From the IMG/VR virus record IMGVR_UViG_3300024968_000004, positions 1 through 21,321 of that record: a stretch of DNA of 21,321 bases; one strand, given 5' to 3'. The position numbers were made by a program, and so were the translations under genes. The notes below the pieces were generated by a model. The model saw nothing but the letters and a program-made list of their open reading frames with translations. It searched no databases and had not been told where the DNA came from. Positions 1 through 13,191 of this stretch are shown here, one piece after another; position 1 is the stretch's first letter, and each line of letters begins with the position of its first letter. Source of the DNA: a virus.

Positions 1-29
1 ATACCGATCGATCCGATCAACTCGTGCAT
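1..29 (-). CDS. Start of a leftward gene, cut by the window edge
   Basis: On the minus strand an ATG at 27-29 opens the frame MHELIGSIG, which runs off the left edge. A purine-rich GGAGG lies about four bases upstream, close to the stop of the lipoprotein gene at 42-386. The gene would therefore be the next member of the same leftward operon. Only nine residues are visible, so no function can be given; the start is supported by the ribosome-binding site alone. Confidence 0.4.
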
Positions 30-41
30 AATGCCTCCGTC

Positions 42-386: not shown

Positions 387-414
387 TGTTATCTCCTATA
401 GGGTACGCAGTACA

Positions 415-479
415 GTAGGGCGGAGCCGTCAGGCGATCCGCCATCATTCGGCGGAACCGATGCCGCGTTCCGCCTTACG
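415..479. repeat. REP-like double palindrome
   Basis: Two inverted repeats sit side by side between two leftward genes. The first has arms GGCGGA (419-424) and TCCGCC (437-442). The second has perfect 8-base arms GGCGGAAC (450-457) and GTTCCGCC (467-474). The outermost sequences, GTAGGGCGGA and TTCCGCCTTAC, also pair with one mismatch, so the whole unit is a nested palindrome. Composition, size and position just after a stop codon are those of a bacterial REP/BIME-type intergenic repeat. Such repeats are normally chromosomal, which hints that host DNA may begin near here. Copy number in the genome is unknown from this window. Confidence 0.6.
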
Positions 480-484
480 AGTTA

Positions 485-1201
485 TCAATGCTGAGCGGCA
501 TCAAGCTTGGCTTTGATCCGCTTGCCAATATATGTTGGCGCAATAAGTGTAGTGGCAGCGAGAATTAGCGCCACGCAGAACAACACAAACTGCAACGCAT
601 CATAGCCTACTTGTGAAATGGGCTGTTTGATCAAGATGAGTTTGAGCGCCAATAACGCCAAACCCAATGCACTCAGGGCTGCCGCAACCCCTCCCAATAA
701 AGGTTCAAGCACAGGAATCGTGATTCGTAGCCTGTCGTTTTCATAGTCGAGCACATTGCCTAACCAGACTTTTTTGATTTGCCCTGGATGAAAATCGGCC
801 ATCAGGCGAGTCAGCGCCTCACGTTCCTGCTTGGCGGCACGGATACCGGTGCGCCGAAAGAATTCTTCGTATTCATTCATTTCTTTCGTAAACACCGCAT
901 GACTGTCCTGTTTTTGCGTCTGAAGCGCGACATTGAATTCGGCGGCGATATTTTGCAGCTTTGCCAGCTCATTCACGCCTAAATCCTTGAAAATCGTCGT
1001 GCCATACAGTACCTGACTGATTCGCTCGATTACCGGTTGACAGTTGGTTTCGCCGCAGGTTTTCAGCAGCACATGAGCGGCCCGCTTGATGGGATCAGGC
1101 TTGTTTTCCGGTACGTTCGCCACATGGATATTGATGATTGCGCCATCCTCGGCATTCACGGCGACGCCCGTATCGCCGTTGATTTCCACCTTAGTGTTCA
1201 T
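485..1201 (-). CDS. Two-TM membrane protein coupled to the repressor
   Basis: A 238-residue protein that I cannot assign to a family. Residues 6-28 form a short polar/beta segment (NGDTGVAVNAEDGAIINIHV). Residues 35-155 are mostly helical and charged, and two hydrophobic segments follow at about 164-192 and 203-225, with a basic tail. The bulk is therefore predicted to be cytoplasmic with a C-terminal hairpin anchor. Its start overlaps the repressor stop by four bases (ATGA), so the two are translationally coupled and should be expressed in the lysogen. The GD-G...N-I segment resembles the C-terminal end of the repressor, which suggests the two proteins work together. Superinfection exclusion or a defence role is possible by position only. 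Confidence 0.8.
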   Translation of the reverse strand: MNTKVEINGDTGVAVNAEDGAIINIHVANVPENKPDPIKRAAHVLLKTCGETNCQPVIERISQVLYGTTIFKDLGVNELAKLQNIAAEFNVALQTQKQDSHAVFTKEMNEYEEFFRRTGIRAAKQEREALTRLMADFHPGQIKKVWLGNVLDYENDRLRITIPVLEPLLGGVAAALSALGLALLALKLILIKQPISQVGYDALQFVLFCVALILAATTLIAPTYIGKRIKAKLDAAQH

Positions 1202-1869
1202 TCCTTCTCCTTTTTATTTTTCCTCATATCGATCGTGAAATTACTAAGCGTTTGCGAGCCGTGCAGTTGTTGGCCTACGTCGCCATGCGTAACAAATTTC
1301 GCTTGGGAGGACGCCGTAGTCTTTGCTTCGGCACCTTTCGCAGCCAATGACGCCATGCGCTTGATGGTATCTTGATCTCCTTGGGTGCAGTGCTCCAGAT
1401 TGTCCAACAGCGCCTTTTGATCAGGGCGCAACGCTTCATAGGAATCCAACGATTCCTTGATCATTTCCATATCGCCAATCTGCGCGGCATAAAGAATATC
1501 CCGAATCAATAACAGTTTGTCTTCCGGCAAATCAAGGCCGGCTACCAATTGTGTGGTCGTTTTAACCGCGTCCAATCGCTGATTCAGTACTTTTTCTCGC
1601 TCGCTTTGCAGCATCGGGCCGACGCCCGTGCCTAGCCAGTGCGCCGAGACTCCCATATTGATCAGCCTCTCAAGTTCTTTGGCACTGAATTTTTCGGCTC
1701 TTCCAGAACTTAGCCTTTTAACTCGATCAAGAGATACATCAAGCGCTTCACTTAATGCCCTCTGATCCATGCTGAAGTGGGACATTATTTGTTTTGTAAG
1801 TTTTTCTATCACACCAATACCAAAATAATTTGACAGAGTGCGATTAACGCACTTATACTTTTTCTTCAC
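1198..1869 (-). CDS. Prophage repressor, HTH type, no peptidase domain
   Basis: A 223-residue DNA-binding protein. Residues about 20-85 resemble the N-terminal domain of CI-type repressors: a helix-turn-helix at about 36-56 (ALSEALDVSLDRVKRL) and the sequence HWLGTGVGPM. The rest is helical. There is no Ser-Lys S24/LexA peptidase domain, so RecA-stimulated self-cleavage is not expected; inactivation by the antirepressor encoded at 11702-12388 would fit. The C-terminus (193-215) carries the GDVGQQLHGSQ motif echoed in the next gene. The full ORF overlaps the early promoter at 1830-1859, so a start at GTG 1812 or ATG 1788 is at least as likely as ATG 1869. It faces away from the early operon, the usual position of c in Mu-like phages. 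Confidence 0.75.
   Translation of the reverse strand: MKKKYKCVNRTLSNYFGIGVIEKLTKQIMSHFSMDQRALSEALDVSLDRVKRLSSGRAEKFSAKELERLINMGVSAHWLGTGVGPMLQSEREKVLNQRLDAVKTTTQLVAGLDLPEDKLLLIRDILYAAQIGDMEMIKESLDSYEALRPDQKALLDNLEHCTQGDQDTIKRMASLAAKGAEAKTTASSQAKFVTHGDVGQQLHGSQTLSNFTIDMRKNKKEKE
1830..1859 (+). promoter_or_regulatory. Early promoter with embedded operator-like palindrome
   Basis: A perfect -35 box TTGACA (1830-1835) is followed after 18 bases by TATACT (1854-1859), reading rightward to the gp16-type regulator gene at 1916. The spacer holds AGTGCG-ATTAA-CGCACT, an inverted repeat with perfect 6-base arms that would be a natural binding site for the divergently encoded repressor or for the 1916 product. 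This is inferred from position and symmetry. Confidence 0.65.
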
Positions 1870-1915
1870 TCAACGTAGAGCGCAAATTTACTTAACAACA
1901 AACCGAGAGCCAACC

Positions 1916-2116
1916 ATGAAAACCATCGAACAATTCATGGCCGAACTGGAAGCCGAAGGCAAAACGGTCGTCCAGTGGGCCGAAGAGCACGAATTTCCGC
2001 TCTGGGCCGTTTACCGCGTCACGTGCGGCGGCAATAAAGGACGCCGCGGCCGTGCCCACGCCATCATGGTCGCAATGGGCGTCAAGCCCGGCAGCACCAA
2101 CCAACAAGCCGCCTAG
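1916..2116 (+). CDS. BcepMu gp16-like early DNA-binding regulator
   Basis: A 66-residue protein starting MKTIEQFMAEL. It has the pattern of the BcepMu gp16 family of phage proteins: an N-terminal helix, a WA-x-x-H...WAVYRV recognition-helix region, then a GRRGRAHAIMVAMGVK tail. Small proteins at this place in transposable phages (Ner in Mu) bind the early control region and turn down repressor or early transcription. An in-frame start at 1838 would add 26 residues but lies between the promoter boxes, so the ATG at 1916 is preferred. It is the first gene of the rightward operon and ends nine bases before the next ATG. Confidence 0.75.
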   Translation: MKTIEQFMAELEAEGKTVVQWAEEHEFPLWAVYRVTCGGNKGRRGRAHAIMVAMGVKPGSTNQQAA

Positions 2117-2124
2117 GAGGCATC

Positions 2125-2679
2125 ATGCCGCAAGAATCTTGGAAAAACATTAACCCGCCTGATGGCTGGGGAACCGGCCCATTAAAAACGCTTGATCAAT
2201 TAGCCCAGGCCGTCATCGCCGACTTTGACCCCAGTAACGGTGGCAATTTTCGCCAACTGGCGGAGCAGTACGGGATGACCTTGCTACAAATGCACAATCT
2301 TATTCATGCCCGCCGTCCCGATCTTTACCAGCAGTACCTTGACCGGCGGTCATGTGCTGAAAAATCGTCGCCAGCGTTCCATGCACCGCAACCAGACATT
2401 TCGGCTGCATCAACCCCTTCTCGCACGTCGCATCGTACTGATCGTGCTGCCAGCAATCAGAAGCGTTGGGGCAGCTTGAAAAAATGGTGGCGGACCAAGC
2501 GCGTTGGCCAATCGCCAGCCAATACGGCAACGGCACCGCGAACCGGTTGCAGCGTTCACATAACCGGCGATATAGCGGGTCTATCGCTTTCCATTTCGCC
2601 GGCCAATGGTCAGGCTCTGGAATTGGTGTTTTCATCCGATGTCCACAATGCGGACAAACGTAGGTCATGCCGTGATTAG
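2125..2679 (+). CDS. Hypothetical protein; C-terminal half doubtful
   Basis: The start is well supported: AGGAGG lies just upstream and the preceding gene stops eight bases before. The first 75 residues look like a genuine small phage protein, with a possible helix-turn-helix around NFRQLAEQYGMTLLQMHNLI. From about residue 80 onward the composition changes to Ser/Thr/Ala/Arg-rich low-information sequence. That part lies opposite a minus-strand ORF (2300-2689) that has its own ribosome-binding site and zinc-binding cysteines. The gene may be complete at 184 residues, or an early gene whose 3' part has been replaced by the antisense gene. I know of no function for it. Confidence 0.5.
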   Translation: MPQESWKNINPPDGWGTGPLKTLDQLAQAVIADFDPSNGGNFRQLAEQYGMTLLQMHNLIHARRPDLYQQYLDRRSCAEKSSPAFHAPQPDISAASTPSRTSHRTDRAASNQKRWGSLKKWWRTKRVGQSPANTATAPRTGCSVHITGDIAGLSLSISPANGQALELVFSSDVHNADKRRSCRD

Positions 2680-2689
2680 AGTCGCTCAT
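2300..2689 (-). CDS. Putative zinc-ribbon protein on the opposite strand
   Basis: This 129-residue minus-strand ORF has a good GGGAG eight to nine bases before its ATG. Its N-terminus carries CPHCGHRM (Cys 12 and 15) and, about 28 residues later, LCERCNRF (Cys 44 and 47), a plausible four-cysteine zinc ribbon. Small zinc-ribbon proteins are common phage regulators (Ogr/Delta, Com), but the cysteine spacing does not match those families closely. The ORF overlaps most of the rightward gene 2125-2679, so at least one of the two is probably not coding over its full length. If real, it is a single leftward gene inside a rightward early operon, perhaps an inserted cargo gene. Confidence 0.45.
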   Translation of the reverse strand: MSDSNHGMTYVCPHCGHRMKTPIPEPDHWPAKWKAIDPLYRRLCERCNRFAVPLPYWLAIGQRAWSATIFSSCPNASDCWQHDQYDATCEKGLMQPKCLVAVHGTLATIFQHMTAGQGTAGKDRDGGHE

Positions 2690-2801
2690 TTTTCAATCTC
2701 CCGTCTGCGTTTGAGGCGGGGTTATTTTCGCACTGTAAAACAATTTTGTACCAGATGCAAAGCGGCTTTTTGTTTGGCAGGCGGGTTTTGGGGGAGTGCC
2801 A

Positions 2802-3275
2802 ATGGCTAAACGCAATTGGAAACACGCACAGCCGCTGGATTTGCGTCATGCGATGGACCTGTGCCTGGAATACGCCAAGGAAAAGCACAACCGTTCCGCC
2901 GACAACATCGCCGACCTGATGGGCGAGGTCAACAAGTGGACGCTATATAAATGGATCGAGGCCGGCTCGATGCCGGTGCGCCTGGTGAAGCCCTTCGAAC
3001 ATGCCTGCGGCATCGATTTTTTGAGCCGCTGGCTGGCAATGAGCGGCAACAAGCTGGTGATCGAGATTCCGATCGGCAAGATCGCCGACGCAGAAGACAT
3101 CCACTCGCTGCAGGAGATCACCCATGAAGCGGTCGGCTCGCTGATCAAGTTTTACCACCAGCAGGCCGGCGCGGACGAAACCCTGGCTGCCGTGCAGAAC
3201 GCCTTGGAACGCCTCGCCTGGCACCGAGGCAATGTATCGAAGTGCCAGCAACCGGAAATTCCTTTTGATGATTGA
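2802..3275 (+). CDS. Putative phage regulatory DNA-binding protein
   Basis: A 157-residue protein whose first two thirds have the layout of phage CII/HTH-type regulators: a helical start (LRHAMDLCLEYAKEKHNRSADNIADLM), then KWTLYKWIEAGSMP as the likely recognition helix, then a conserved-looking PFEHACGIDFLSRWLA segment. The C-terminal third is helical and may mediate oligomerisation. The ATG at 2802 is chosen over the GTG at 2796 because GGGGGAG at 2789-2795 is then spaced about six bases away. It follows a stretch of about 110 bases without a convincing gene and leads the next group of small regulators. Its exact role, early control or lysogeny, is inferred only from position. Confidence 0.65.
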   Translation: MAKRNWKHAQPLDLRHAMDLCLEYAKEKHNRSADNIADLMGEVNKWTLYKWIEAGSMPVRLVKPFEHACGIDFLSRWLAMSGNKLVIEIPIGKIADAEDIHSLQEITHEAVGSLIKFYHQQAGADETLAAVQNALERLAWHRGNVSKCQQPEIPFDD

Positions 3276-3308
3276 GCACAACAAAACAAACAGAATTTTA
3301 GGAACGAA

Positions 3309-3575
3309 ATGAGCAAAACACGAATAGACCAACGCCAGGGGGCAAATCTGCTAAAGACCTTGGACGCCATGACTGGCGATTTCGCCAACGGCTACACGGT
3401 TCAGGACTTGGCCGATAAAACCGGATTCAAGCCGCGCACCATAAAAAAACATTTGGCGCTTTTGCAAAGCGTGAGCCACGCCGAAATTATCCCGGAAACC
3501 GGGCGGCACCGGATCAGCGAGTCATTTGCAAGGGCCATGGTGCAGGCCGCCAGAGCCAGAGGGATTGCGATATGA
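3309..3575 (+). CDS. Small winged-helix DNA-binding protein
   Basis: The 88-residue product has a winged-helix layout: LLKTLDAMTGDFANGYTVQDLADKTGFKPRTIKKHLALLQS is a typical H1-H2-H3 arrangement with the recognition helix at RTIKKHLALL, followed by a two-strand wing (AEIIPETGRHRIS). Its stop overlaps the next ATG by four bases (ATGA), and that product has the same kind of fold, so the pair is co-translated. It probably binds phage or host control sites; the target cannot be read from the sequence. Confidence 0.7.
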   Translation: MSKTRIDQRQGANLLKTLDAMTGDFANGYTVQDLADKTGFKPRTIKKHLALLQSVSHAEIIPETGRHRISESFARAMVQAARARGIAI

Positions 3576-3883
3576 ATCCGGATGTTTACAAACAGAGCGA
3601 CATGCTTGTGCACAACGTCGCCATTATCCGCGTCTTGGCCGGCCATACCTTCAACGGGCTGAGTAATACGGAAATCAGCAAGTCGATCGGGATCAAGCCG
3701 GACAAGGTGACGCGCTATTTGGCAAACCTGAGCAAGCTGGGCGTCGTGCAGGAAACCAAAGTGCCGGACAGATGGCGCCTGGGGCCGGCTTTTGTGCAAA
3801 TCGCCCTGGCACATCAGGCCCACATGCAGCGGGTCGAAGCCGAACTCGAAGAAGTCAAACAACGTTATAGCCGCAAGGATTAA
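3572..3883 (+). CDS. IclR/MarR-like winged-helix protein
   Basis: A 103-residue protein. After a short N-terminal helix, LSNTEISKSIGIKPDKVTRYLANLSKLGVVQE forms the helix-turn-helix, and VPDRWRLGPAFVQIA forms the wing as in the IclR N-terminal domain. The last 30 residues are a charged helix (HMQRVEAELEEVKQRY) suited to dimerisation. Its start lies inside the end of the previous winged-helix gene, and the large coiled-coil gene begins two bases after its stop. Two adjacent winged-helix proteins suggest a duplicated or heterodimeric regulator. Confidence 0.7.
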   Translation: MNPDVYKQSDMLVHNVAIIRVLAGHTFNGLSNTEISKSIGIKPDKVTRYLANLSKLGVVQETKVPDRWRLGPAFVQIALAHQAHMQRVEAELEEVKQRYSRKD

Positions 3884-3885
3884 TC

Positions 3886-4887
3886 ATGGCACGCACAGAA
3901 AGACCACAGATAGAAGAAGCCGAATTTACCGCAGCGATTGATTTGCAAGCCGCCAATGCGCCGGCCGTGAAAGCCGAACAGGAACTGGCCGAGATCAAGA
4001 GCGCCTTTGGGGAAGAACAGCGGCGAACGACCCTCTTGATCGGCCAGCGCGTCGGTCGCAAGCAAATGATCAATGCGATCCAAAAACTGGTAACCGTTAC
4101 CGATTTGATTGATTTGCAAAATATCAAGGAAACCAAGCAATACAAGGGTTACGAGCATATCACCTCGGATGGAAAACTGGTAATCATTACCACTTTTTCC
4201 GAATATTGCCTGTATGTCGAAGGCCGATCAGCGGAAGCCGTGAATCTCGACCTTCTCAACCTAAAGGTATTGGGGGAAGAATTTTTCGATGCGATGCGTC
4301 AAATCGGCATCGGCCCCGGCACGATGCGCGACCTGCGGGCCTTGCCGGAAGACGAACGGCAAGCGTTGTTACAGGTTGCCCAGGAAGCCGACAAAGACGC
4401 CTTTGTCGATCTCGCTTCGACACTGATCGCCAAACACGAAGCCGACAAACAAGCCGCCAAGAAACAGCATGACGAGCTCAAAGCCACGCTCGATGCCAAG
4501 GACGCGGTGGTGCAGAAAAAACAGGAAGAGCTGGCGAAAAAAGACCGGATGATCGACGGGCTCAACGAGAGAATTGCGCTGCATGAGCGCAAGGCGCTCA
4601 CCGCCACGCCGGACGAAAAAGCCTTGGCCGCGCGCGATGCGGTACTGCGCGCCGCCGAGCGCGTTAAGGCGGCGGTAATGGCCGACCTGCGCGCGGCCAT
4701 CAAGATTCTGGTCGAAGACGCGCCAGGACAGCATGCCCTGTACGCTTCCGCCTGTCTGATCGAGATCGGCCGGGAGCTGGCCATTTTGCGCGGCGACTTC
4801 AACCTGCCGGATACCTTGTCCGAAAGCCTGATGCCTGAATGGCTAACCCAGGAAGATCTGGATGCCATCCAAGGTAAGGGGGCCTGA
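3886..4887 (+). CDS. Coiled-coil early protein upstream of transposase
   Basis: A 333-residue soluble protein. Residues 25-65 are helical, and 66-115 contain a mixed alpha/beta part (KGYEHITSDGKLVIITTFSEYCLYVEGR). GIGPGTMRDLRALPEDERQAL at about 141-161 looks like a compact helical DNA- or protein-binding element. Residues 182-234 form a strongly charged coiled coil, and a helical tail follows. The stop shares one base with the transposase start (TGATG). A large coiled-coil protein directly before A suggests a transpososome or replication accessory role, but I do not recognise the family and this is inference from position. Confidence 0.7.
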   Translation: MARTERPQIEEAEFTAAIDLQAANAPAVKAEQELAEIKSAFGEEQRRTTLLIGQRVGRKQMINAIQKLVTVTDLIDLQNIKETKQYKGYEHITSDGKLVIITTFSEYCLYVEGRSAEAVNLDLLNLKVLGEEFFDAMRQIGIGPGTMRDLRALPEDERQALLQVAQEADKDAFVDLASTLIAKHEADKQAAKKQHDELKATLDAKDAVVQKKQEELAKKDRMIDGLNERIALHERKALTATPDEKALAARDAVLRAAERVKAAVMADLRAAIKILVEDAPGQHALYASACLIEIGRELAILRGDFNLPDTLSESLMPEWLTQEDLDAIQGKGA

Positions 4888-6647
4888 TGAGCGCCGCAAT
4901 GCTGGAACGATTGGCGGCGGTGGCGCTGGCGGCGCAAGAGGCTCCGCACGGCCAGCGCGGCCAGCTGTACCAAGCCGCCTGTGTCGAGCTGGGTATTTCT
5001 CTGCAAACGCTGCATGCCAAGCTGAACGCGATCAGTGTGCGCCCCAAGCGCAAACAGCGCAACGATGCCGGCACGACCAGCCTGCAGCGCGCCGAAGCGG
5101 AGATCATCGCTCAGTACTACCTGGAGCATATCCGCAAGAATGCCAAGCGCGTAAAGCCCTGGGAGCAGGCGATGGCCGAACTGCGCAAGAACGGCATGAT
5201 TGTGGCTGGGCGGGTCGATCCGGAAAGCGGCGAATTGACCTTGCTATCGACCACCGCGATTCAGCGGGCGATGCGCGGCTACGGCCTGCACCCCGAACAA
5301 TTGCAGGCGCCCGACCCAGTGACGCCGCTGACCAGCAAGCACCCGAACTGGTGCTGGCAGATCGATGCATCGCTGTGCGTGCTGTACAAGCTGCCTGACC
5401 AAGGCTACGGCATCGAAGAGGTAAAAACGGTGGAGCGCTACAAGAACAAGCTCAGCCATTTCGCCAAGATCGAGCACAAGCTGGTACAGCGTTATTTGAT
5501 TACCGATCATGCCAGTTGCGCGGTATTCATCTATTACGCGCTCGGCGGCGAAAGCACTGAGAGTCTGTGTATGCTGCTGGTGCTGGCGATCCAGCAGCGC
5601 GAAGCGTACCCGTTTTACGGTATTCCACGCATCATCATGCTCGACCGGGGCAGCGCCAACCGCAGCGCGATGTTCCGCAATTTGTGCAAGGGGCTCGGCA
5701 TCAAGCTGATCTTTGCGCAGCAGGCGCGCGCCAAGGGCCAGGTCGAAAAAATGCACGATGTGATCGAGCTGGGCCTGGAATCCGGCCTGAAGATGGCGAC
5801 GCATATCCGCGATGTCGATGCGCTGAACGCCTTGGGCCAGCGTTGGATGCACTGGTTTAACGGCACCCGCAAGCACTCCCGGCACGGCATGACGCGCTAC
5901 GCGGCCTGGCAGCGGATTACCGCAGAGCAACTGATCGCGACGGATTTATCAACCGCGGAACTGTTGCAGTTAGCGCGCGACAAACCGCAGTCGTGCAAGG
6001 TCTCGCCGTATTTGACGGTGCGGTTTAAAGGCATCGACTACGACGTATCGCAAGTTCCTAATGTACTGGTCGGCCAAAAACTCGACGTGTGCCAAAGCGG
6101 CTGGCAGAGCGGCACGGCGCTGGCGGTATTGGTGGATGAGGAAGGCTACGACGTATTTCATCCCCTGGCGGAAAAGCCGCGCGATGAGGTATGGGGCTGG
6201 TTTACCGACGGTGCGGACATTGGCGAAACCCATGCGCGCCATGCCGACACGCCGGCACAAACCGCGCGCAAGGCGCTGGAACGCTTGGCGATCGGGGCCG
6301 AAACGGATGCGGAAGCAGAAGCCAACCGTAAGGCCAAGGTCGCGCCGTTCGGCGGCCAGATCAACCCCTACAAGGAAATGGAAGCGTATCAGGCTCCGGA
6401 CTATTTCCCGAACCGGGAAACTCCAGCCAAACTGGCCCGCGCCCAAATCGAGCTGATCCGCATGAACATGGTGCAGATGGCTAAATGGCTGCAAGGCCGG
6501 CTGGGCGAGGACTATCAGCCTGCCATGCTGGCTGATCTGCAAAAACGGTTTCCGGACGGTGCGACCGACCCGGAACTGGAAGAAGTGCTCGCCGATCTCC
6601 GTGCAGGACGCACGGCGGCCGGGCGGGCGAATTTGAAGGCTGTTTAA
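4887..6647 (+). CDS. A: DDE transposase (Mu A-like)
   Basis: This 586-residue protein carries out DNA cutting and strand transfer at the phage ends during integration and replicative transposition. The catalytic triad is visible: D160 in WCWQIDASL, D253 in IIMLDRGSANRS, and E287 in ARAKGQVEKMHD, giving the D-D(34)-E spacing of the integrase/RNase H fold. The N-terminal 130 residues are helical and include an HTH-like LQTLHAKLNAISVRPKRK. Residues about 365-440 form the beta-rich domain that follows the catalytic core in MuA. The C-terminal helical region should contact the B-like ATPase encoded two small genes downstream. The start is coupled to the preceding gene (TGATG). Confidence 0.93.
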   Translation: MSAAMLERLAAVALAAQEAPHGQRGQLYQAACVELGISLQTLHAKLNAISVRPKRKQRNDAGTTSLQRAEAEIIAQYYLEHIRKNAKRVKPWEQAMAELRKNGMIVAGRVDPESGELTLLSTTAIQRAMRGYGLHPEQLQAPDPVTPLTSKHPNWCWQIDASLCVLYKLPDQGYGIEEVKTVERYKNKLSHFAKIEHKLVQRYLITDHASCAVFIYYALGGESTESLCMLLVLAIQQREAYPFYGIPRIIMLDRGSANRSAMFRNLCKGLGIKLIFAQQARAKGQVEKMHDVIELGLESGLKMATHIRDVDALNALGQRWMHWFNGTRKHSRHGMTRYAAWQRITAEQLIATDLSTAELLQLARDKPQSCKVSPYLTVRFKGIDYDVSQVPNVLVGQKLDVCQSGWQSGTALAVLVDEEGYDVFHPLAEKPRDEVWGWFTDGADIGETHARHADTPAQTARKALERLAIGAETDAEAEANRKAKVAPFGGQINPYKEMEAYQAPDYFPNRETPAKLARAQIELIRMNMVQMAKWLQGRLGEDYQPAMLADLQKRFPDGATDPELEEVLADLRAGRTAAGRANLKAV

Positions 6648-6705
6648 CCGACCATTACGAGGGCAACCGCGCAATGGTCTCCCCAACCCAACCGAGGAAT
6701 TTTGA

Positions 6706-6903
6706 ATGCTGAATGTGATTAAACGCTATCTGAAACCCAAAACCACCACCCAGTCGACAAGCGCCGAAAAGGGCAAGACCGATGCCGAGCTGCTGATCCT
6801 GTACCGCCGCTTTGCCCGCAAGGCGCTGTTCCACAAAAACGTCAAGGTCCATATGGCCAAGATCGAGGCGGATATTCGCGGCGAGGAGGTCGGACATGGC
6901 TAG
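6706..6903 (+). CDS. Small hypothetical protein between A and B
   Basis: A 65-residue basic protein (MLNVIKRYLKPK...) with a central helix (DAELLILYRRFARKALFHKNVKVHMAKIEADI). A GAGG lies just upstream. Its stop overlaps the start of the next ORF by eight bases. No motif is recognised. Its place between transposase and ATPase genes suggests a transposition or early accessory role, but there is no direct evidence. Confidence 0.6.
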   Translation: MLNVIKRYLKPKTTTQSTSAEKGKTDAELLILYRRFARKALFHKNVKVHMAKIEADIRGEEVGHG

Positions 6904-7111
6904 ATACACCATCACCATAGAAGACGGCGCCCCGGGCGAGCCGGTCAAGGTCATAGTCGACAAGCAGGTCCCGGCAAATGAAGACCCGCAGGCGCTGACC
7001 CGGGCGGGAAAGCTGGCGACCTATGCGCGGATCAAGCTGTTCGAACTGGAACTGGCCGCCAAAGCCGACCACGGGCAACGCATGCAAGAGGCCGATAAAT
7101 GCTGCCACTGA
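6896..7111 (+). CDS. Small hypothetical protein upstream of B
   Basis: A 71-residue protein beginning MARYTITIEDGAPGEPVKVIVDK, two beta strands, followed by a helix (ALTRAGKLATYARIKLFELELAAKAD) and a Cys-Cys-His end. GAGGAGG directly upstream fixes the start at 6896 rather than at upstream in-frame ATGs. It overlaps its neighbours on both sides (8 bases and 13 bases), typical of a tight early operon. Function unknown. Confidence 0.65.
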   Translation: MARYTITIEDGAPGEPVKVIVDKQVPANEDPQALTRAGKLATYARIKLFELELAAKADHGQRMQEADKCCH

Positions 7112-8259
7112 AAGCGCTGTTGCAGCAAAAAGGCATGAGCCAGGCGCGCCTGGCGCGCAAGGTGAAGCTGAGCCCGGCGACGATCGCACAGCTGTTGAAT
7201 AAAGGCATTTGGCCGACCAATCCACCGCGCGATGCGTTGCAGGCATCGATTACGGCGGTATTGACGGCCAAGGGCATCGCGGTTTCGGCCGCGCACTTCG
7301 AACCCGCGCCTATTGCAGAGGACGCGGAAAAAAACCATAACGCCCAGGAGGGCATTGATATGCTATTACGAAAACAAACCTTAAGTCCACAAGCCCGCAA
7401 ACATTTTGGCTTGTTCCGCGATCCTTTCGACAACGATGTGACCGAAGCCAGCGACGTGTTCGTGACGCCGGACAGCCGCTATGTGCGGGAAGCGATGTGG
7501 AGCACCGCCAAGCTCGGCGGCTTTATCGCGGTGGCCGGCGAGTCCGGCAGCGGCAAGTCGACCCTGCGCCGCGACCTGATCGACCGCATTGCCCGCGAAG
7601 ACGCGCCAATCGTGATCATGGAACCCTATGTGCTCGGCATGGAAGACAACGATCTGAAGGGCAAGACGCTGAAGGCCGGATCGATAGCCGACTCGATGAT
7701 CCATGCGCTGAGCCCGCTGGAAAAGCCGCGGCAGACGATGGAGGCGAAGGGCCGCCAGTTGCACCGACTGCTGAAGGACAGCCGCAAGGCCGGGTTCGTG
7801 CATTGTCTGATCATCGAAGAGGCGCATGGCCTGAGCGTGCCGACGCTGAAGCACCTGAAGAGATTCTTTGAGTTGGAGGACGGATTCAAGAAGCTGCTGT
7901 CGATCATCCTGATCGGCCAGACCGAACTGAAAACCAAGCTCTCGGAGCGGGCGCCGGAGGTGCGGGAAGTGGTGCAGCGCTGCGAGCTGGTGGAACTGGC
8001 GCCGCTGGACAGCCACCTGGACGCTTACCTGAAATTCAAGTTCGACCGCGTCGGCAAGCCGTTCGACGAGGTATTCGAGGCCGGGGCGCTGGACGGCCTG
8101 CGCGCCCGGCTGATCTTCAGCAATGGCGGCAAGAACGACCGGGGCACGATCAGCCTGATGTACCCACTGATGGTGAATAACCTGGTCACAGCCGCATTGA
8201 ATCAGGCCGCGTCGCTGGGCTTTCCGAAGGTTTCGGCGGATTTGATTAGGGAGGCGTAA
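7099..8259 (+). CDS. B: AAA+ transposition target ATPase (Mu B-like)
   Basis: A 386-residue protein. Residues 1-60 form an HTH domain of the kind found at the N-terminus of MuB (MSQARLARKVKLSPATIAQLLNKG). The AAA+ core follows, with Walker A AGESGSGKST at 146-155, a Walker B-like segment LIIEEAH at 237-243, and IILIGQTEL as sensor 1. MuB-family proteins bind target DNA as ATP filaments, deliver it to A and provide target immunity. The start overlaps the end of the previous small gene. Phages of this type often carry an ExeA-like version of this ATPase, and the C-terminal half here looks closer to that type than to classical MuB. Confidence 0.9.
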   Translation: MLPLKALLQQKGMSQARLARKVKLSPATIAQLLNKGIWPTNPPRDALQASITAVLTAKGIAVSAAHFEPAPIAEDAEKNHNAQEGIDMLLRKQTLSPQARKHFGLFRDPFDNDVTEASDVFVTPDSRYVREAMWSTAKLGGFIAVAGESGSGKSTLRRDLIDRIAREDAPIVIMEPYVLGMEDNDLKGKTLKAGSIADSMIHALSPLEKPRQTMEAKGRQLHRLLKDSRKAGFVHCLIIEEAHGLSVPTLKHLKRFFELEDGFKKLLSIILIGQTELKTKLSERAPEVREVVQRCELVELAPLDSHLDAYLKFKFDRVGKPFDEVFEAGALDGLRARLIFSNGGKNDRGTISLMYPLMVNNLVTAALNQAASLGFPKVSADLIREA

Positions 8260-8675
8260 TGGCGAATCAACTGGATGCCATCGGCAACGATGCCGCGAGC
8301 CTGCCCGACCTGATCGATGCCGCCCAGGTAGCGGCATTGTGCGGCCGGAAAACGCCGGGGTTCACGCATATGAAGATTCGCGACGACCGCAGTTTTCCGC
8401 GCCCGCTGAACGGACGCACAGGCGCAGGCGGCCCGCGCATGCTATGGCGGCGCTCGGAAATTTTGCAGTGGATCGAGCAGAAGGAAAACGGCAAAAAAGA
8501 GCAGGCGCAGCCCGCCGTCACCGAGCGGCTGCATATCGATACCGCGTTGAAATTCATCAGCGGCCATTTCGACGCGCCGCACGCCCAGAAGGCCTGCCTG
8601 CGCCGCATCGAGCGTGCCCGCAAAAACAACATCAAAAACCAAAAACGCATCCGCATCGAAGGGGACTGGAAATGA
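8259..8675 (+). CDS. Putative small DNA-binding protein (AlpA/MerR-like HTH)
   Basis: A 138-residue protein. The first 75 residues look like an excisionase/AlpA-type HTH: LIDAAQVAALCGRKTPGFTHMKIRDDRSFPRPLNGRT...LWRRSEILQWIEQ, with the usual helix, recognition segment, beta hairpin and final helix. The C-terminal part is basic (RRIERARKNNIKNQKRIR) and may add nonspecific DNA binding. It shares one base with the end of the ATPase gene and four with the next gene, so it is part of the early transposition operon. Confidence 0.65.
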   Translation: MANQLDAIGNDAASLPDLIDAAQVAALCGRKTPGFTHMKIRDDRSFPRPLNGRTGAGGPRMLWRRSEILQWIEQKENGKKEQAQPAVTERLHIDTALKFISGHFDAPHAQKACLRRIERARKNNIKNQKRIRIEGDWK

Positions 8676-9160
8676 GTTTTGCAGACCATGACATTGAAAG
8701 ATTCGGCGAATTGTTTTGCCGGCTGGAATCCATGTATCGGGTGCGCAGTCAGCATGCGCTCTCGTTCGACCTGTTCATGACCGCGCCGGAGCAGAACGAG
8801 CGCTGGGTCCACATTTATTTCGCAAATCGGCACCTTCTGGCCCATCGCCGCGAAGGCGCCCATGTCACGCTGCTGGCCTACCTGCAAAACGGGGCGTCCT
8901 GCGTGCTGCTCGGCGCGCAACTGATGGACGAGCAACAGCGCGACTCGATCGGCCTGGTCGCCGAACATGCGCTGCTGCCACGGCAGCGGGCGGCGGGCCA
9001 GGTGTTCGACACGATGAATGAATATGCGCTGCAAGAAGCCGCCGACAACCGCTTCGAACGCACGCATACGGTCGAGCGCCGCGGCGCCTGCTATGTCGAG
9101 GCATTCCACGACTATCACCCGCCGGTCAAATGGAAAACGCGAGGTGTGCATGTCGCATAA
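8672..9160 (+). CDS. Hypothetical early protein
   Basis: A 162-residue protein with no membrane segment, starting MSFADHDIERFGELFC at an ATGA overlap with the preceding gene. A much earlier in-frame ATG at 8339 exists but lies in the upstream HTH gene and is rejected. The composition is ordinary globular, with many aromatic residues and histidines (WVHIYFANRHLLAHRREGAHVTLLAYLQNGASCVLLGAQLMDEQQRD). No motif is recognised. Its operon position suggests an early accessory function. Confidence 0.65.
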   Translation: MSFADHDIERFGELFCRLESMYRVRSQHALSFDLFMTAPEQNERWVHIYFANRHLLAHRREGAHVTLLAYLQNGASCVLLGAQLMDEQQRDSIGLVAEHALLPRQRAAGQVFDTMNEYALQEAADNRFERTHTVERRGACYVEAFHDYHPPVKWKTRGVHVA

Positions 9161-9482
9161 CGCAGCGCAAGGTTTGCCGGTGTTGGCTCTGGCCGTTGGC
9201 ATTGGCGCGATCGGACTGATCGGGATCGGCATGATGATGGTTCAATTGCTTCGGGAGATGATCAGGGCTTCGGCTCCGCTCAGCCGGCGGGGGACTGTGG
9301 CCGAGCGGATGGCGGCTGCGGATCTTAAAGCGGCAGCCAAGCAGATAGCGGCGGCCGAGTGGAAAAGCGCGGAAAGAAAAGAGCCGGAGTATTGTTTTTA
9401 TCCCGAATGCACCTGCCCTTTCGATGCGCCCGGCGGGACGGATTGGTGCCTGCGCAAACTGCCGCACAGGGAGCGCAAATGA
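9150..9482 (+). CDS. Small single-TM protein with Cys-rich tail
   Basis: This 110-residue product has one long hydrophobic segment (about residues 8-35, LPVLALAVGIGAIGLIGIGMMMVQLL), a basic/alanine-rich helix, then CFYPECTCPFDAPGGTDWC with four cysteines that could bind a metal. The ATG at 9150 overlaps the previous gene by 11 bases; the earlier ATG at 9018 lies inside that gene and is rejected. A membrane protein among early genes could act on host physiology or exclusion, which is speculative. Confidence 0.6.
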   Translation: MSHNAAQGLPVLALAVGIGAIGLIGIGMMMVQLLREMIRASAPLSRRGTVAERMAAADLKAAAKQIAAAEWKSAERKEPEYCFYPECTCPFDAPGGTDWCLRKLPHRERK

Positions 9483-10081
9483 AGGTAGCATGCCCATCCT
9501 GCGGCGCCCTGATGAGCCTGGACATTATCGTCGCCCACGACGGCGCCCGCGACGCGGTGCAGATGGCGCTGAATCTGCCCGCGCCGCTCGGCAAACTGAT
9601 CATCCAGTACCTGACCCTGTTCCGCCCGCAAAAGCGGCAGTTGACCCTCGACCGGGTCGCCGACATCCTGGCCGAACTGCTGCCGATGATCCTGGCCGAG
9701 CGCATCAGCCGCAACGGCAAGGACCATAAGATCGCGCAATTCGTCTGGGCGGCCGGGCTGAAGGAGATCATGATCCGGCACAGAGACAAGCCGCTGACGA
9801 CGCCGCTGAAAAACCACGGCTACCTGTGCGAGATATTGATTAGCCAGGCGGCCACCGCCGAGGCCAAGCTGGAAGCCAAGGTCGAGCAGCAACGCCGGCA
9901 GCCGCCGGCGCGGGAGCAGGAACAGCGCAGCGGCGGCATGAAGGATGTCGGCCAGCATCTGGCCGGCATGAAAGCCGCGCTGAAAGGCCAGGAGCCGTCG
10001 ATCAGTTTTGCGGAGCTGACCGCGATGGCGCAACAGAAAGAAATTGAACGTAACCAACCCCAAGAGGCAACACATGAGTGA
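9479..10081 (+). CDS. Early phage protein with N-terminal CxxC
   Basis: A 200-residue protein starting MKVACPSCGALMSLDIIVAHDGARDAVQMALNLPAPLGKLIIQYLTLFRP. The single CPSC pair may be half of a metal site. Residues 40-115 are helical (VADILAELLPMILAERISRNGKDHKIAQFVWAAGLKEIMI), and the tail 120-200 is charged and coiled-coil-like. I recall similar proteins between B and GemA in BcepMu-type phages, of unknown role. The start at 9479 overlaps the preceding stop (ATGA). Confidence 0.65.
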   Translation: MKVACPSCGALMSLDIIVAHDGARDAVQMALNLPAPLGKLIIQYLTLFRPQKRQLTLDRVADILAELLPMILAERISRNGKDHKIAQFVWAAGLKEIMIRHRDKPLTTPLKNHGYLCEILISQAATAEAKLEAKVEQQRRQPPAREQEQRSGGMKDVGQHLAGMKAALKGQEPSISFAELTAMAQQKEIERNQPQEATHE

Positions 10082-10700
10082 TGTAGTAGAACAACCGATC
10101 AACACCCAGTATAAGCGCAACGCGCTTGGGCACCTGGTGCCCGTCGAGCAGATCGACGAAATCGACCTGATCAGAGACGAGCTGGTGGACGAGATCATCA
10201 AGAACAGCCGCCACCTGCAAGCCGCGATGCGCGACTTTAAGGACCGCACGCTAACCGAAATCGACGCCTTCATCGACCTGTCCGCCGCCGAATACGACAC
10301 GCAGATCGGCGGCGCCAAGGGCAACGTGACGCTGACCAGCTTCGACGGCAAGTACCGGGTGCAGATCAAGAACCAGGCGAACATCGCCTTCGATGAGCGC
10401 CTGCAAGTCGCCAAGCAGTTGATCGACGAACTGATTCACGAATGGGCGCAGGGATCGCGAGGCGAGATCCGCGCGCTGCTGGAGCATGCCTTCCAGACCG
10501 ACAAGGAGGGCAACATCAACAAGGGCCGCGTGATCAGCCTGTTCAAACTGAAGATCGACGACCCGAAATGGCTGGCGGCGATGGATGCGATTCGGGACAG
10601 CATGCAGGCCAGTCACAGCAAGGAGTATCTGGGCCTGTACGAGCGGGTCGGCAATGAAGACAAGTACGTGCGCATTAGTCTCGATATTGCGGGGCTGTGA
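10074..10700 (+). CDS. DUF3164 family phage protein
   Basis: A 208-residue protein matching the DUF3164 pattern known from Mu-like phages: YKRNALGHLVPVEQIDEIDLIRDELVDEII at the start, GAKGNVTLTSFDGKYRVQIK in the middle, and LYERVGNEDKYVRISLDIA at the end. The family is always found in the early region of such phages, and its members are sometimes mislabelled as sulfate transporters although there is no membrane segment. The biochemical role is not known to me. The ATG at 10074 is preferred over 10044, which lies in the previous gene. It ends at a TGATG junction with the next gene. Confidence 0.85.
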   Translation: MSDVVEQPINTQYKRNALGHLVPVEQIDEIDLIRDELVDEIIKNSRHLQAAMRDFKDRTLTEIDAFIDLSAAEYDTQIGGAKGNVTLTSFDGKYRVQIKNQANIAFDERLQVAKQLIDELIHEWAQGSRGEIRALLEHAFQTDKEGNINKGRVISLFKLKIDDPKWLAAMDAIRDSMQASHSKEYLGLYERVGNEDKYVRISLDIAGL

Positions 10701-10966
10701 TGGTTTGGGTAACGATCGACCTTTGTGACGGCAAAGAACCGCTCGGATTTTCCGTGAAAGAGGCAGACGAGGCAAGGCTGCGCCAGTTCATGGCCGACTG
10801 TCATGCAGACAAACTGGATGCGACGAGATACCGCCGGCTGAGAATTGAAAATGCAAAGCCCTCTGCAGAGGGCTCATTGTTTGTCGGTTACGACAATGAA
10901 CAAGGCGGTTGTTGGGTTGGTTGCGATCTGGACGCGGCTATTGACGGCCTATTACAGGAGGGTTAA
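10700..10966 (+). CDS. Small hypothetical protein with internal palindrome
   Basis: An 88-residue protein (MVWVTIDLCDGKEPLGFSVKEADEARLRQF...), compact alpha/beta in appearance, with no known motif. The ATG overlaps the preceding stop as TGATG; a GTG three bases earlier is also possible. An 18-base perfect palindrome (10857-10874) lies inside its coding sequence. The gene is slightly more AT-rich than its neighbours, which may mean it was acquired separately. It shares one base with the start of gemA. Confidence 0.6.
   Translation: MVWVTIDLCDGKEPLGFSVKEADEARLRQFMADCHADKLDATRYRRLRIENAKPSAEGSLFVGYDNEQGGCWVGCDLDAAIDGLLQEG
10857..10874. repeat. 18-base perfect palindrome inside a coding region
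   Basis: AGCCCTCTGCAGAGGGCT reads the same on both strands, with no unpaired centre. It lies inside the small ORF before gemA. It could be a protein-binding site or a hairpin that modulates transcription reaching gemA. It is too symmetrical to be expected from codon use, but one such site in 21 kb is not by itself proof of function. Confidence 0.6.
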
Positions 10967-11436
10967 TGGACGCAAAAAAAACTGACAACCGCCAGCGCCT
11001 GTACACGCTGCTGCAAGTCGGCAAACAGCAGCTCGGCTGGGACGACGAGTTCTATTACGGCATCTGGCTGCCGATGCAGGGCGCGACCAAGAACGCCGAC
11101 GGCCGGTATTCGGCGACCACGCTGGACATCGGCAAGCTGACGCAGGCGGTCGAGACGATGAAGCGGGCCGGCTTCAAGGTCAAGGCCAAGGCCGATACCA
11201 GCAACCGCCCATTGGCCGGCGATGCGCAGTCGAAGAAGATCCGCGCGCTATGGCTGCATCTGCACGATATCGGCGCGGTGCGCGATCCGTCAGAGGCATC
11301 GCTGAACGCCTACGTCAAACGGCAGACCGGCATCGAGGCGCTGCAATGGCTCAGCGAGAAGCAGGCCAGCGGGGTGATCGAGGTGTTGAAGCGGTGGCAG
11401 CAGCGCGTCGGCGATAAAGCAAACTCTGTACAATAA
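10966..11436 (+). CDS. gemA: GemA-family regulator (Mu gp16-like)
   Basis: This 156-residue protein matches the GemA/DUF1018 family: LYTLLQVGKQQLGWDDEFYYGIWLPMQGA at the start and a C-terminal half with SKKIRALWLHLHDIGAVRDPSEASLNAYVKRQTGIEALQWLSEKQASGVIEVLKRW. In Mu, GemA is an early protein that alters host gene expression and DNA supercoiling, though the mechanism is poorly defined. AGGAGGG lies just before the ATG, which also touches the preceding stop. It closes the first early block; about 265 bases of RNA-level control sequence follow. Confidence 0.9.
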   Translation: MDAKKTDNRQRLYTLLQVGKQQLGWDDEFYYGIWLPMQGATKNADGRYSATTLDIGKLTQAVETMKRAGFKVKAKADTSNRPLAGDAQSKKIRALWLHLHDIGAVRDPSEASLNAYVKRQTGIEALQWLSEKQASGVIEVLKRWQQRVGDKANSVQ

Positions 11437-11439
11437 CTA

Positions 11440-11469
11440 TTGACAAAACCTTTTCCGAGAGGCTAGATT
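11440..11469 (+). promoter_or_regulatory. Promoter of the antirepressor/C4 module
   Basis: A perfect TTGACA (11440-11445) is followed, 18 bases on, by TAGATT (11464-11469), a moderate -10. It lies right after the gemA stop and reads into the leader, C4 RNA and antirepressor. A GC-rich imperfect hairpin (CCCGCGCCG / CGGCGCGCGGG, 11473-11497) would form at the start of the transcript. This fits a constitutive promoter whose transcripts are mostly stopped or processed early. Confidence 0.55.
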
Positions 11470-11498
11470 ATCCCCGCGCCGCACATCGGCGCGCGGGA

Positions 11499-11705
11499 TT
11501 GGCGTCTCGGAATAACACGGCACAGGCCGCATCATGCGGTTTTTTTGTGCCTTCGCTCCAGCTCTTCATTTTGTCGGGCTGGGCGGGCTCCATCGAGAGA
11601 TGGGGGCCGGTCCGTGTTACCGGTACGCCAACCCGTCCAGTCCCGGCACCCATGTTTGGCGTCATGTTGCCGGGTTTAAATCAATTAACACGGAGTTCAA
11701 CATGA
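11499..11705 (+). CDS. Icd/Ash-like reading frame over C4, coupled to ant
   Basis: A 68-residue frame starting at TTG 11499 and ending in a TGA (11703-11705) that overlaps the antirepressor ATG (ATGA). It contains FILSGWAGSIERWGPV...GTPTRPVPAP, the kind of sequence that arises where a C4 RNA is read as protein and that databases label ash family or Icd-like. In phage P1, icd lies over c4/ant control sequences and its translation is needed for ant expression; the stop-start overlap here suggests the same coupling. The protein itself may be unimportant. TTG is a weak start, and translation starting at an internal codon is possible. Confidence 0.45.
   Translation: MASRNNTAQAASCGFFVPSLQLFILSGWAGSIERWGPVRVTGTPTRPVPAPMFGVMLPGLNQLTRSST
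11519..11551 (+). terminator. Attenuator-like hairpin with T-run in the ant leader
   Basis: CCGCA-TCA-TGCGG (11527-11539) is followed by seven T residues (11540-11546), the form of an intrinsic terminator. A second, outer pairing GGCACA (11519-11524) with TGTGCC (11546-11551) encloses it. It lies upstream of the C4 RNA and antirepressor, so it may stop a fraction of transcripts started at 11440 or set the 5' end of the processed RNA. Confidence 0.6.
11572..11648 (+). ncRNA. c4: C4-type antisense RNA controlling the antirepressor
   Basis: The fold can be read off. A long closing stem pairs 11572-11587 (TGTCGGGCTGGGCGGG) with 11632-11648, including G-U pairs and one bulged T. Inside are hairpin CTCCATC-GAGA-GATGGGG (11588-11605) and hairpin CCGGT-CCGTGTT-ACCGG (11607-11623). 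This is the C4 RNA layout known from P1/P7 and many prophages, always upstream of antirepressor genes. TCCGTGTTA (11611-11619) is fully complementary to TAACACGGA (11686-11694), which includes the ant ribosome-binding site. ACGCCAA (11625-11631) is complementary to TTGGCGT (11656-11662). The first copy of each target lies at 11513-11520 and 11499-11505. The RNA should block ant translation in trans. The ends are approximate. Confidence 0.88.
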
Positions 11706-12388
11706 ACGAACCACAATCCCTACAAGCGCAAGCTCAGCAACTGGAAACCGTCTGGTTTCACGATCATGCCATCCTGATCGCTACCCTAGATCAAACCCAT
11801 TATGTGGCGATGAAGCCCATTGTCGAGACAATGGGGCTTGATTGGCACGGCCAGCGCCAACGTATAAATCGCGACCCTATTTTATCGACCTGCGCGGTTA
11901 TGATAACCTCTCAGCTCCCCGGCGATAGCCAACGCCGGGACATGATGTTTTTGCCGTTCGAGTTCTTCCACGGCTGGCTGTTCACCATCGACGCCTCCCG
12001 CGTCAAGCCCCAATTGCAGGAGGCCATCCTGGTTTACCAAAGGGAATGCTACCGCGTGCTGGCGGCGCATTTTTCCAAGCGGGATACTCAGGAGCCGGTT
12101 TTAAAGCTGCAAAATCAGTTGCAAAAGGTACAAACACAGCTCACCAAGCTGGAAGCCGCTTGGTTCGCCAAATATCCGCACTGGCGCACGATCCGCGACG
12201 ATTATTATGTCGGCTACCCGTTCAGCTACATTGCCAAAATGGCCGGCAAGTCGGTCAGCGCCTGCCGCCGGGCGGTCAAGCGCATGGAGGCATGCGGCCT
12301 GATCAATCCGCGCCATGCCGCCCTGCACCGCTTATCGCACGGCCAGTACGAGCTGTGGCGCCAAGCCAATCCCACTCTTGGCTGGTAA
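11702..12388 (+). CDS. ant: P22-type antirepressor
   Basis: A 228-residue protein. Residues about 13-125 match the P22 antirepressor N-terminal domain: WFHDHAILIATLDQTHYVAMKPIVETMGLDWHGQRQRI, then MMFLPFEFFHGWLFTIDASRVKPQLQEAILVYQRECYRVLAAHF. The C-terminal part has a coiled coil (LKLQNQLQKVQTQLTKLEA) and an HTH-like end (SYIAKMAGKSVSACRRAVKRME). Antirepressors bind and disable phage repressors. Here the likely partner is the S24-less repressor at 1198-1869, or the repressor of a co-resident phage. Translation is predicted to be controlled by the C4 RNA and the overlapping upstream frame. The long in-frame extension back to 11534 starts inside the attenuator hairpin and is rejected. Confidence 0.88.
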   Translation: MNEPQSLQAQAQQLETVWFHDHAILIATLDQTHYVAMKPIVETMGLDWHGQRQRINRDPILSTCAVMITSQLPGDSQRRDMMFLPFEFFHGWLFTIDASRVKPQLQEAILVYQRECYRVLAAHFSKRDTQEPVLKLQNQLQKVQTQLTKLEAAWFAKYPHWRTIRDDYYVGYPFSYIAKMAGKSVSACRRAVKRMEACGLINPRHAALHRLSHGQYELWRQANPTLGW

Positions 12389-12398
12389 GGAGACGAGC

Positions 12399-12623
12399 AT
12401 GGAAACCCTGGAAGCCCATTTCGAGTTGTCCGAAGCGCAAGAGCACCGCATGTACCGGGTTCGCCACATCATGAAGGTGATGTGCGCGATGGCCGACGCC
12501 ATCCCGCCTGGCAAGGAGGTCTGTCTGAATCCTGAGTCATTATTCTGCCTGCTGTCCACCCTGGAAGAATTGCTGCCGCAGGATAAGGAGCTAGAGTTTA
12601 AGATTCAGTCGCTAACGCCTTAG
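12399..12623 (+). CDS. Small hypothetical protein before Mor
   Basis: A 74-residue acidic, helical protein (METLEAHFELSEAQEHRMYRVRHIMKVMCAMADAIPPGKEVCLNPESLFCLLSTLEELLPQDKEL). AAGGAG lies seven bases upstream and fixes the start at 12399, ten bases after the antirepressor stop. It is therefore likely to be co-expressed with ant. No family is recognised. Confidence 0.7.
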   Translation: METLEAHFELSEAQEHRMYRVRHIMKVMCAMADAIPPGKEVCLNPESLFCLLSTLEELLPQDKELEFKIQSLTP

Positions 12624-12634
12624 TTTGTTAAAAT

Positions 12635-12661
12635 GCGGGGGTCTTATTCAAAGGTCCCCGC
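12635..12661 (+). promoter_or_regulatory. Leader hairpin before the Mor-family gene
   Basis: GCGGGG (12635-12640) and CCCCGC (12656-12661) form a 6-bp stem ending two bases before the ATG at 12664. The only Shine-Dalgarno-like AAGG (12651-12654) lies in the loop next to the 3' arm. The hairpin could therefore limit ribosome access, or on DNA be a protein-binding dyad. No clear separate promoter was seen between 12624 and 12634. Confidence 0.4.
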
Positions 12662-12663
12662 CC

Positions 12664-13065
12664 ATGATTGACCTCCCCCTGCACCTGTTACCCGTCAAAC
12701 TCCGCGAAATCGCCGAATACTGCGGCGCCGACACCGCGCTACTGCTGCTCGAACACGCCGGCGGCGGCACCCTTCTCGTCATCCGTCCCGAACATTTAGA
12801 CGCCATGCATAACCTGGTCATTTGGCTGGGCGTCGAGCGTGCACAGAAGTTCTGCGACGCCTTTGCCGGCGAGATCATCAAAGTCCCCCGCGCCGCGGGG
12901 GCGCTGCGCGCGATCCGCAATCAGAAGATCCGCGAGGAACGCAGGTCCGGGGCGACGCTATTCACGCTGGCCCGGCGCTACGGCATGACTGATCGCCAGA
13001 TTTCGACCATCCTCGGCAACGAGGAGGCGAAAGCCGACCAGTTCGATCTATTTGGCATGGAATGA
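12664..13065 (+). CDS. mor: Mor/C-family transcription activator
   Basis: A 133-residue protein of the Mor family: an N-terminal dimerisation part (LPVKLREIAEYCGADTALLLLEHAGGGTLLVIRP), then KFCDAFAGEIIKVPRAAGALRAIRNQKIREERRSGATLFTLARRYGMTDRQISTILGNEE with the C-terminal HTH. In Mu, Mor switches on middle transcription and C activates late promoters by contacting RNA polymerase at sites with poor -35 boxes. Only one such gene is seen here, placed before lysis and head genes, so it may serve as the single middle/late activator. The next 126 bases are its likely target. Confidence 0.88.
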   Translation: MIDLPLHLLPVKLREIAEYCGADTALLLLEHAGGGTLLVIRPEHLDAMHNLVIWLGVERAQKFCDAFAGEIIKVPRAAGALRAIRNQKIREERRSGATLFTLARRYGMTDRQISTILGNEEAKADQFDLFGME

Positions 13066-13191
13066 CGACCTGGCACGTCGGCCCTTACTGAAATCCCCTG
13101 TTCAGAACCCCTTCGTATTATCCGCACGATCCGCCCCCGCTAAACTACTCCGGACTTCGTTATTTACCGCTACCCGTCCGGAGCGCTGCAT
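13066..13191 (+). promoter_or_regulatory. Candidate late promoter region with two dyads
   Basis: This is a gene-free stretch between the activator and endolysin genes. It holds two inverted repeats: CTGAA / TTCAG (13088-13105) and the perfect 8-base arms CTCCGGAC / GTCCGGAG (13148-13155 and 13176-13183). A poor -10-like TAAACT lies at 13141-13146, with no matching TTGACA. Lack of a -35 plus dyad symmetry is what a Mor/C-activated promoter would show. The second dyad overlaps the endolysin ribosome-binding site (CGGAG), so it could instead act on translation. Confidence 0.4.

Follow-up and report, generated by a model that had tools for sequence, protein, structure and literature searches.

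A probable C4-type antisense switch with co-varying pairing words in an exchangeable antirepressor cassette of a transposable phage

The C4 RNA of phage P1 is produced by processing and acts in trans. In both P1 and P7, a promoter is followed by a leader with two short targets (a1 and b1), a terminator-like hairpin and the C4 RNA itself (Rfam RF01695); the leader targets have given their name to a second Rfam family, RF03163 ('c4-a1b1'). The words of P7 run a1 TTAGCAG, b1 GATTGTG, C4, a2 TTAGCAG and b2 GATTGTGA; a2 and b2 lie across the ribosome-binding site of the gene that follows. For the C4 family, processing by RNase P to an RNA of ~77 nt and repression in trans of the antirepressor gene ant are established (PMC5320573, PMC12197685). 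The Group 1 small RNAs of Acinetobacter baumannii are C4-like and processed from longer transcripts as well, but unlike the locus described here they are present in many dispersed copies, and their targets are not established (PMC5320573).

The IsrK/orf45/anrP locus of the Salmonella prophage Gifsy-1 (isrK, RF01394) has been studied separately. Translation of anrP is increased about 140-fold by IsrK in trans, mutations of the segments termed a1 or a' below derepress in cis, compensatory mutants (G28A/C162U and G31A/C159U) have been constructed, and two alternative folds of nearly equal energy (-85.66 and -84.21) were described (PMC4825925). That paper makes no mention of C4 antisense or C4 RNA, and no paper connecting IsrK with C4 was found in the literature searched. 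A Xylella table (PMC12189769) lists IsrK and C4 side by side, unlinked, and the APSE phage annotation likewise places the two next to each other with no link drawn.

The window analyzed here is a stretch of viral DNA of 21,321 nt (IMG/VR record IMGVR_UViG_3300024968_000004). It contains a comparable arrangement between gemA and mor, with the following features, all on the plus strand.

10966-11436, plus: gemA, upstream of the cassette (PF06252, Pfam 1.3e-29)
11411-12617, plus: insertion or replacement cassette comprising promoter, leader, C4, ant and small ORF (blastn against the relative L158)
11440-11469, plus: sigma-70-like promoter TTGACA-18-TAGATT, predicted start ~11476 (consensus scan, -10 spacing)
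11476-11546, plus: IsrK-like leader RNA with 5' hairpin, a1 hairpin, b1 and terminator (Rfam isrK match)
11499-11505, plus: target a1, TTGGCGT, complement of a'
11513-11520, plus: target b1, TAACACGG, complement of b'
11524-11546, plus: intrinsic-terminator-like hairpin with T run, between b1 and C4 (scan; the T run is common in C4 loci)
11567-11653, plus: C4 antisense RNA (RF01695; predicted three-way junction fold)
11611-11619, plus: antisense segment b', TCCGTGTTA (sequence; P3 hairpin loop of the fold)
11625-11631, plus: antisense segment a', ACGCCAA (sequence; junction strand of the fold)
11656-11662, plus: target a2, TTGGCGT, complement of a'
11686-11694, plus: target b2, TAACACGGA, 9 bp, overlapping the ant Shine-Dalgarno sequence GGAG (11692-11695), ATG at 11702
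11702-12388, plus: ant, antirepressor with P22_AR_N, 228 residues (Pfam PF10547, 1.4e-33; phrog_524 anti-repressor Ant, 1.3e-40)
12399-12623, plus: small ORF of 74 residues that travels with the cassette (homology to the L171 small ORF)
12625-13065, plus: mor transcription activator, downstream of the cassette (PF08765, Pfam 1e-9)

The initial annotation had read 11440-11704 as a C4-type antisense switch, and its positions for all a and b words are exact to the base. The Rfam C4 model, which it had proposed as a check, matches 11567-11653 over its complete length (model positions 1-87) with a score of 46.3 bits, a narrow margin over the gathering cut-off of 45, and C4 is the only Rfam family detected at curated thresholds across the 21.3-kb window. 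Folded alone, this segment is predicted to adopt the C4 three-way junction at -48.8 kcal/mol; the loop of the P3 hairpin presents b', a' lies on a single-stranded part of the junction, and both are mostly unpaired and accessible. The matches of a1, b1, a2 and b2 to these segments are all perfect, over 7, 8, 7 and 9 bases respectively, and b2 does cover the antirepressor ribosome-binding site as had been proposed. The a/b pairing is indeed that of P1/P7, every element being present in P7; the pairing words differ, however, P7 is a plasmid prophage rather than a B3-like transposable phage, and its b2 covers icd with ant after it, whereas b2 of the window lies directly on ant. The duplication of both targets, which had been singled out, is real but represents the standard C4 design (P7, RF03163) rather than a special feature. 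Assignment of 11440-11704 to the already known kind of C4-type switches is supported by the Rfam match, by the fold, and additionally by co-variation over 60 loci and matched three-site changes in near relatives.

Upstream of both C4 and ant, the sequence scan places the promoter-like site within the stretch where a promoter had been claimed, and the spacing from its -10 element to the start of the isrK model is equal in the window and Gifsy-1. A LexA box was not found near this promoter, nor was a 9-base word common to the promoter region and the repressor/early region. The attenuator-like hairpin that had been noted is present, but it consists of two separate elements, a 5' hairpin (11476-11492) and the terminator-type hairpin after b1. 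The predicted fold of the leader contains the 5' hairpin, an a1 hairpin and the terminator, and a T run between b1 and C4 is found in 56 of 60 C4 loci. At permissive thresholds on the local stretch, isrK matches 11476-11546 with 39.7 bits (E 2.4e-7), below its gathering cut-off of 50, and c4-a1b1 matches 11463-11513 with 27.4 bits (E 4.4e-5), below its cut-off of 46.7, with a1 and b1 themselves present. We infer that the leader resembles IsrK in its working and do not claim membership of the isrK family. An outer stem (GGCACA...TGTGCC, 11519-11552) surrounds the terminator and T run and is similar in P7 and other C4 loci; it could be a mark of read-through transcripts.

Comparison with Gifsy-1 extends this likeness to the pairing itself. 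IsrK corresponds to a leader with a1/b1 and terminator, with C4 after it, and the a1:a' heptamer TTGGCGT:ACGCCAA is identical to that of the window, forming the same seven base pairs. In contrast, the b words differ and the Gifsy-1 antirepressor is an ORF6N protein. The IsrK/orf45 locus (34131-34316, minus strand) contains a C4 match of 69 bits over 'orf45'. The published positions were mapped manually, using the sequence as printed, with the start set at isrK model base 1 by two pair sums (28+162 and 31+159). On this scale a1 TTGGCGT contains G28 and G31, a' ACGCCAA contains C159 and C162, G114/C175 belong to the C4 stem, and position 107, where the first orf45 start codon is, falls at the C4 5' strand. 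The IsrK mutants therefore already probe the pairing found in the window, and the published experiments support a role of a1:a' in governing antirepressor translation in Gifsy-1, a locus homologous to that of the window. IsrK would then be the partner of C4, and the window switch looks like the same device as IsrK. A need for an 'orf45'-like peptide was considered and found no support: the reading frame that passes through C4 into ant is uninterrupted in the window (11534-12388) and the related locus L171, but not in L170.

The ant product is intact, and its P22_AR_N domain scores 115.9 bits (cut-off 30.7). Its C-terminus is unlike that of P22, with a weak HTH_24 match (20.9 bits, below the cut-off of 21.9) as the sole C-terminal hit and no P22_AR_C. 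A search with the Ant protein gave a single weak match in viral_contigs and nothing closely related in genome_contigs. Pfam confirms gemA and mor as the neighbors that had been named, and a phrog_310 DDE transposase, B protein, GemA, Mor and a Mu-type portal make up the gene set of a Mu-like transposable phage. The Mu half of the proposed Mu/BcepMu-like affiliation is thus borne out, but kinship with BcepMu was rejected, as none of the 58 records matched by transposase is a Burkholderia phage. The nearest transposase matches, at 41-44%, are to B3-like phages, and on these matches the window phage is classed as a B3-like transposable phage. A candidate repressor at 1198-1869 (minus strand) has an Xre-like HTH match below the Pfam cut-off; no recognized self-cleavage domain was found in it with Pfam, which is weakly consistent with induction driven by an antirepressor.

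The window module is most probably a C4 antisense switch that keeps the antirepressor silent in the lysogen, a reading to which we assign a probability of roughly 0.85. Transcription would start after gemA from a constitutive or repressor-controlled promoter, and much of it probably stops at the terminator after b1, yielding a short IsrK-like RNA, while read-through would yield C4 and the ant mRNA. C4 would be excised from this transcript, and pairing of b'/a' with b2/a2 would mask the ant ribosome-binding site, such that no antirepressor is made. For the leader copies a1/b1, pairing to these C4 segments may take either of two routes: in cis it would lock the transcript as it emerges, and in trans the leader would compete for C4 and so release ant. 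Whenever C4 is outcompeted or absent, for instance just after the phage has entered a naive cell, Ant would be made and would presumably inactivate the phage repressor.

Evolutionary constraint on the pairing words was assessed in 60 C4 loci; an Rfam search supplied the genome loci among them, and the others are the window, P7, Gifsy-1 and further phage or prophage records. For each C4, the longest stretch exactly complementary to a' or b' in the flanks of its own locus was compared with that in the flanks of the other loci. Median matches for a1, b1, a2 and b2 are 7, 7, 7 and 8 bases. The summed own-flank matches (427, 438, 410 and 475) are far above the permuted means (289, 321, 278 and 304), and all four exceed the maxima (321, 351, 311 and 344) of 10,000 permutations; the 60 loci are partly related (e.g. 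L194/L202, L195/L198 and L199/L203) and not all independent, but the contrast is still very large. The window locus is regarded as a member of the known C4 kind because the antisense segments and the four targets co-vary across these loci. Additionally, Rfam scans of 18 fetched loci, near-duplicates included, gave in every case an isrK match immediately before C4; it is weak in four (E 0.01-0.05), and 11 of the 18 were recruited by their similarity to isrK-C4 of Gifsy-1, so that only the seven from C4 or GemA searches are unbiased in this respect. Judged by this co-occurrence, the leader and C4 form one module. At the DNA level, the window locus had no match in the phage collection. A strict C4 word pattern gave no match in viral_contigs, and a looser one gave eight stretches there, two of which are C4 above the Rfam cut-off; the 103 stretches that it gave in genome_contigs, many in unrelated taxa and likely due to chance, were excluded from the statistics.

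The same comparison bears on a different reading, in which IsrK-type activation is the main mode: pairing of a1/b1 with a'/b' in cis would silence the transcript, the terminated leader would activate in trans, and C4 would not be a separate repressor. The full window leader is predicted to fold with a1b1 on b'a', the joined transcript (11476-11655) preferring this long-range pairing at -91.5 kcal/mol versus about -84 kcal/mol for the separate folds, the two alternatives being those printed for Gifsy-1 at nearly equal energy; the leader copies are the stronger partner of the C4 loops in 51 of the 60 loci; and the effect of IsrK in trans on anrP and the derepression in cis by a1 or a' mutations point the same way in Gifsy-1. 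However, the lowest-energy fold includes such cis pairing at only 28 of the 60 loci, and a2/b2 by the start codon co-vary as strongly as a1/b1, a match that cis-locking alone does not need. P1 C4, moreover, is established as a processed RNA acting in trans. We therefore consider it unlikely that activation of the IsrK type is the main mode, and retain the antisense switch acting on ant as the preferred reading.

Comparison with relatives indicates how the module is exchanged and lost. The locus L158 is ~90% identical to the window over kilobases but is without the whole block 11411-12617; window segments 8256-11410 and 12618-13080 are adjacent in it (4448/4455), with six bases between them (blastn), and the last gemA codons of the window differ from those of such cassette-less relatives. 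The cassette is not essential, since close relatives lack it. In the near relatives L159-L161, an unrelated spacer of ~170 bases (~4450-4617) lies between gemA and mor, where the window has the cassette. C4 was found in five of 28 GemA relatives, twice in one of the five records, and a sixth C4-positive record (G792) was recruited through Ant rather than GemA; among 78 more distant transposase relatives, many of which are fragments, it was found once, near one end of a record of 57 kb. Of 80 contigs matched by transposase, two show 100% identity to the window, L209 over 1-7307 and L210 over 1-10417, and end before the cassette; both come from other samples and extend the window upstream.

The C4 leaders of related transposable phages in IMG/VR records G768, G774, G775, G776 and G777 reach 81% identity to window 11497-11706. 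Downstream, as in the window, lie an antirepressor gene and a homologous small ORF, but these antirepressors are of the Bro-N or KilA-N type rather than P22_AR_N. In G776 (L170) and G777 (L171) the cassette is after mor instead of between gemA and mor, the leader is 81% identical to that of the window and the small ORF is homologous, while the Bro-N ant shows no BLAST similarity to the window ant. The leader homology stops at the ant start codon; thus, RNA and protein parts have been recombined at this codon. The small ORF of the window (12399-12623) has no Pfam or PHROG match and is 37% identical (E 8e-16) to the ORF behind the C4-ant of L171 (5955-6155). L171 comes from another transposable phage, and the ORF is conserved there although the antirepressor ahead of it is not homologous. 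It may be a third functional component of the cassette.

Near-identical phages differ by replacement of the entire switch. G774 and G776 share 98-99% identity to either side, but a segment of roughly 1 kb, the C4 leader included, is wholly different, and the start of ant has diverged. Judging from such pairs, the C4 module is a swappable cassette among close relatives. For G768 and G776, most of the flanking sequence shows 98-100% identity, yet a' is AGACCAA in the former and ACGCCAA in the latter, and a1 and a2 have changed to match (TTGGTCT versus TTGGCGT), giving six substitutions in register. This three-site change is the strongest evidence within the group that the a sites are selected to pair.

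The compensatory change in relatives also argues against a decayed remnant, a former C4 switch that no longer works in the window. The C4 score barely exceeds its cut-off and both leader families, isrK and c4-a1b1, fall below theirs, but all four target matches are perfect and promoter, terminator and ant are intact; we regard decay as very improbable. Shuffling of 11440-11704 (20,000 dinucleotide-preserving shuffles) produced a 7-mer present twice with its complement in between in 375 cases (about 2%), an 8-mer so arranged in 30, and the complete order a-b / b'-a' / a-b in one; this order is absent elsewhere in the window. A chance likeness of repeated words with no regulatory RNA, to which words as short as 7-8 bases and the frequency of 7-mer triples might incline, can practically be dismissed given the rarity of the full order, the Rfam C4 match and the co-variation over 60 loci.

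By these data, the window locus would carry C4 antirepressor control into B3-like transposable phages, for which no earlier report of C4 was found in the literature searched. The comparison is more useful than the single locus, as it reveals that the a/b words of the antisense RNA and of the four targets change together. We tentatively suggest, as a possibility that we hold to be somewhat short of even, that C4 loci in general are three-part switches of decoy, antisense and target in which the terminated, IsrK-type leader titrates C4, that IsrK of Gifsy-1 and C4 of P1 are separately described halves of one system, and that entire switches, each with its own matched words, are exchanged between transposable phages as immunity alleles. 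If this were true, two well-known prophage RNAs would be one device, and heteroimmunity classes could be read from the a'/b' words.

More than one switch may be present in a single genome. Record G777 (L207) has two C4 switches, at 2596 (minus strand) and 13679 (plus strand), which differ in their pairing words and antirepressor type (Bro-N and KilA-N). The genome of Pseudomonas fluorescens HK44 (source of locus L034) contains 26 scattered C4 matches, 24 of them above the cut-off; the eight loci fetched from it (L119-L126) have their own matching a/b targets and mostly small ORFs next downstream.
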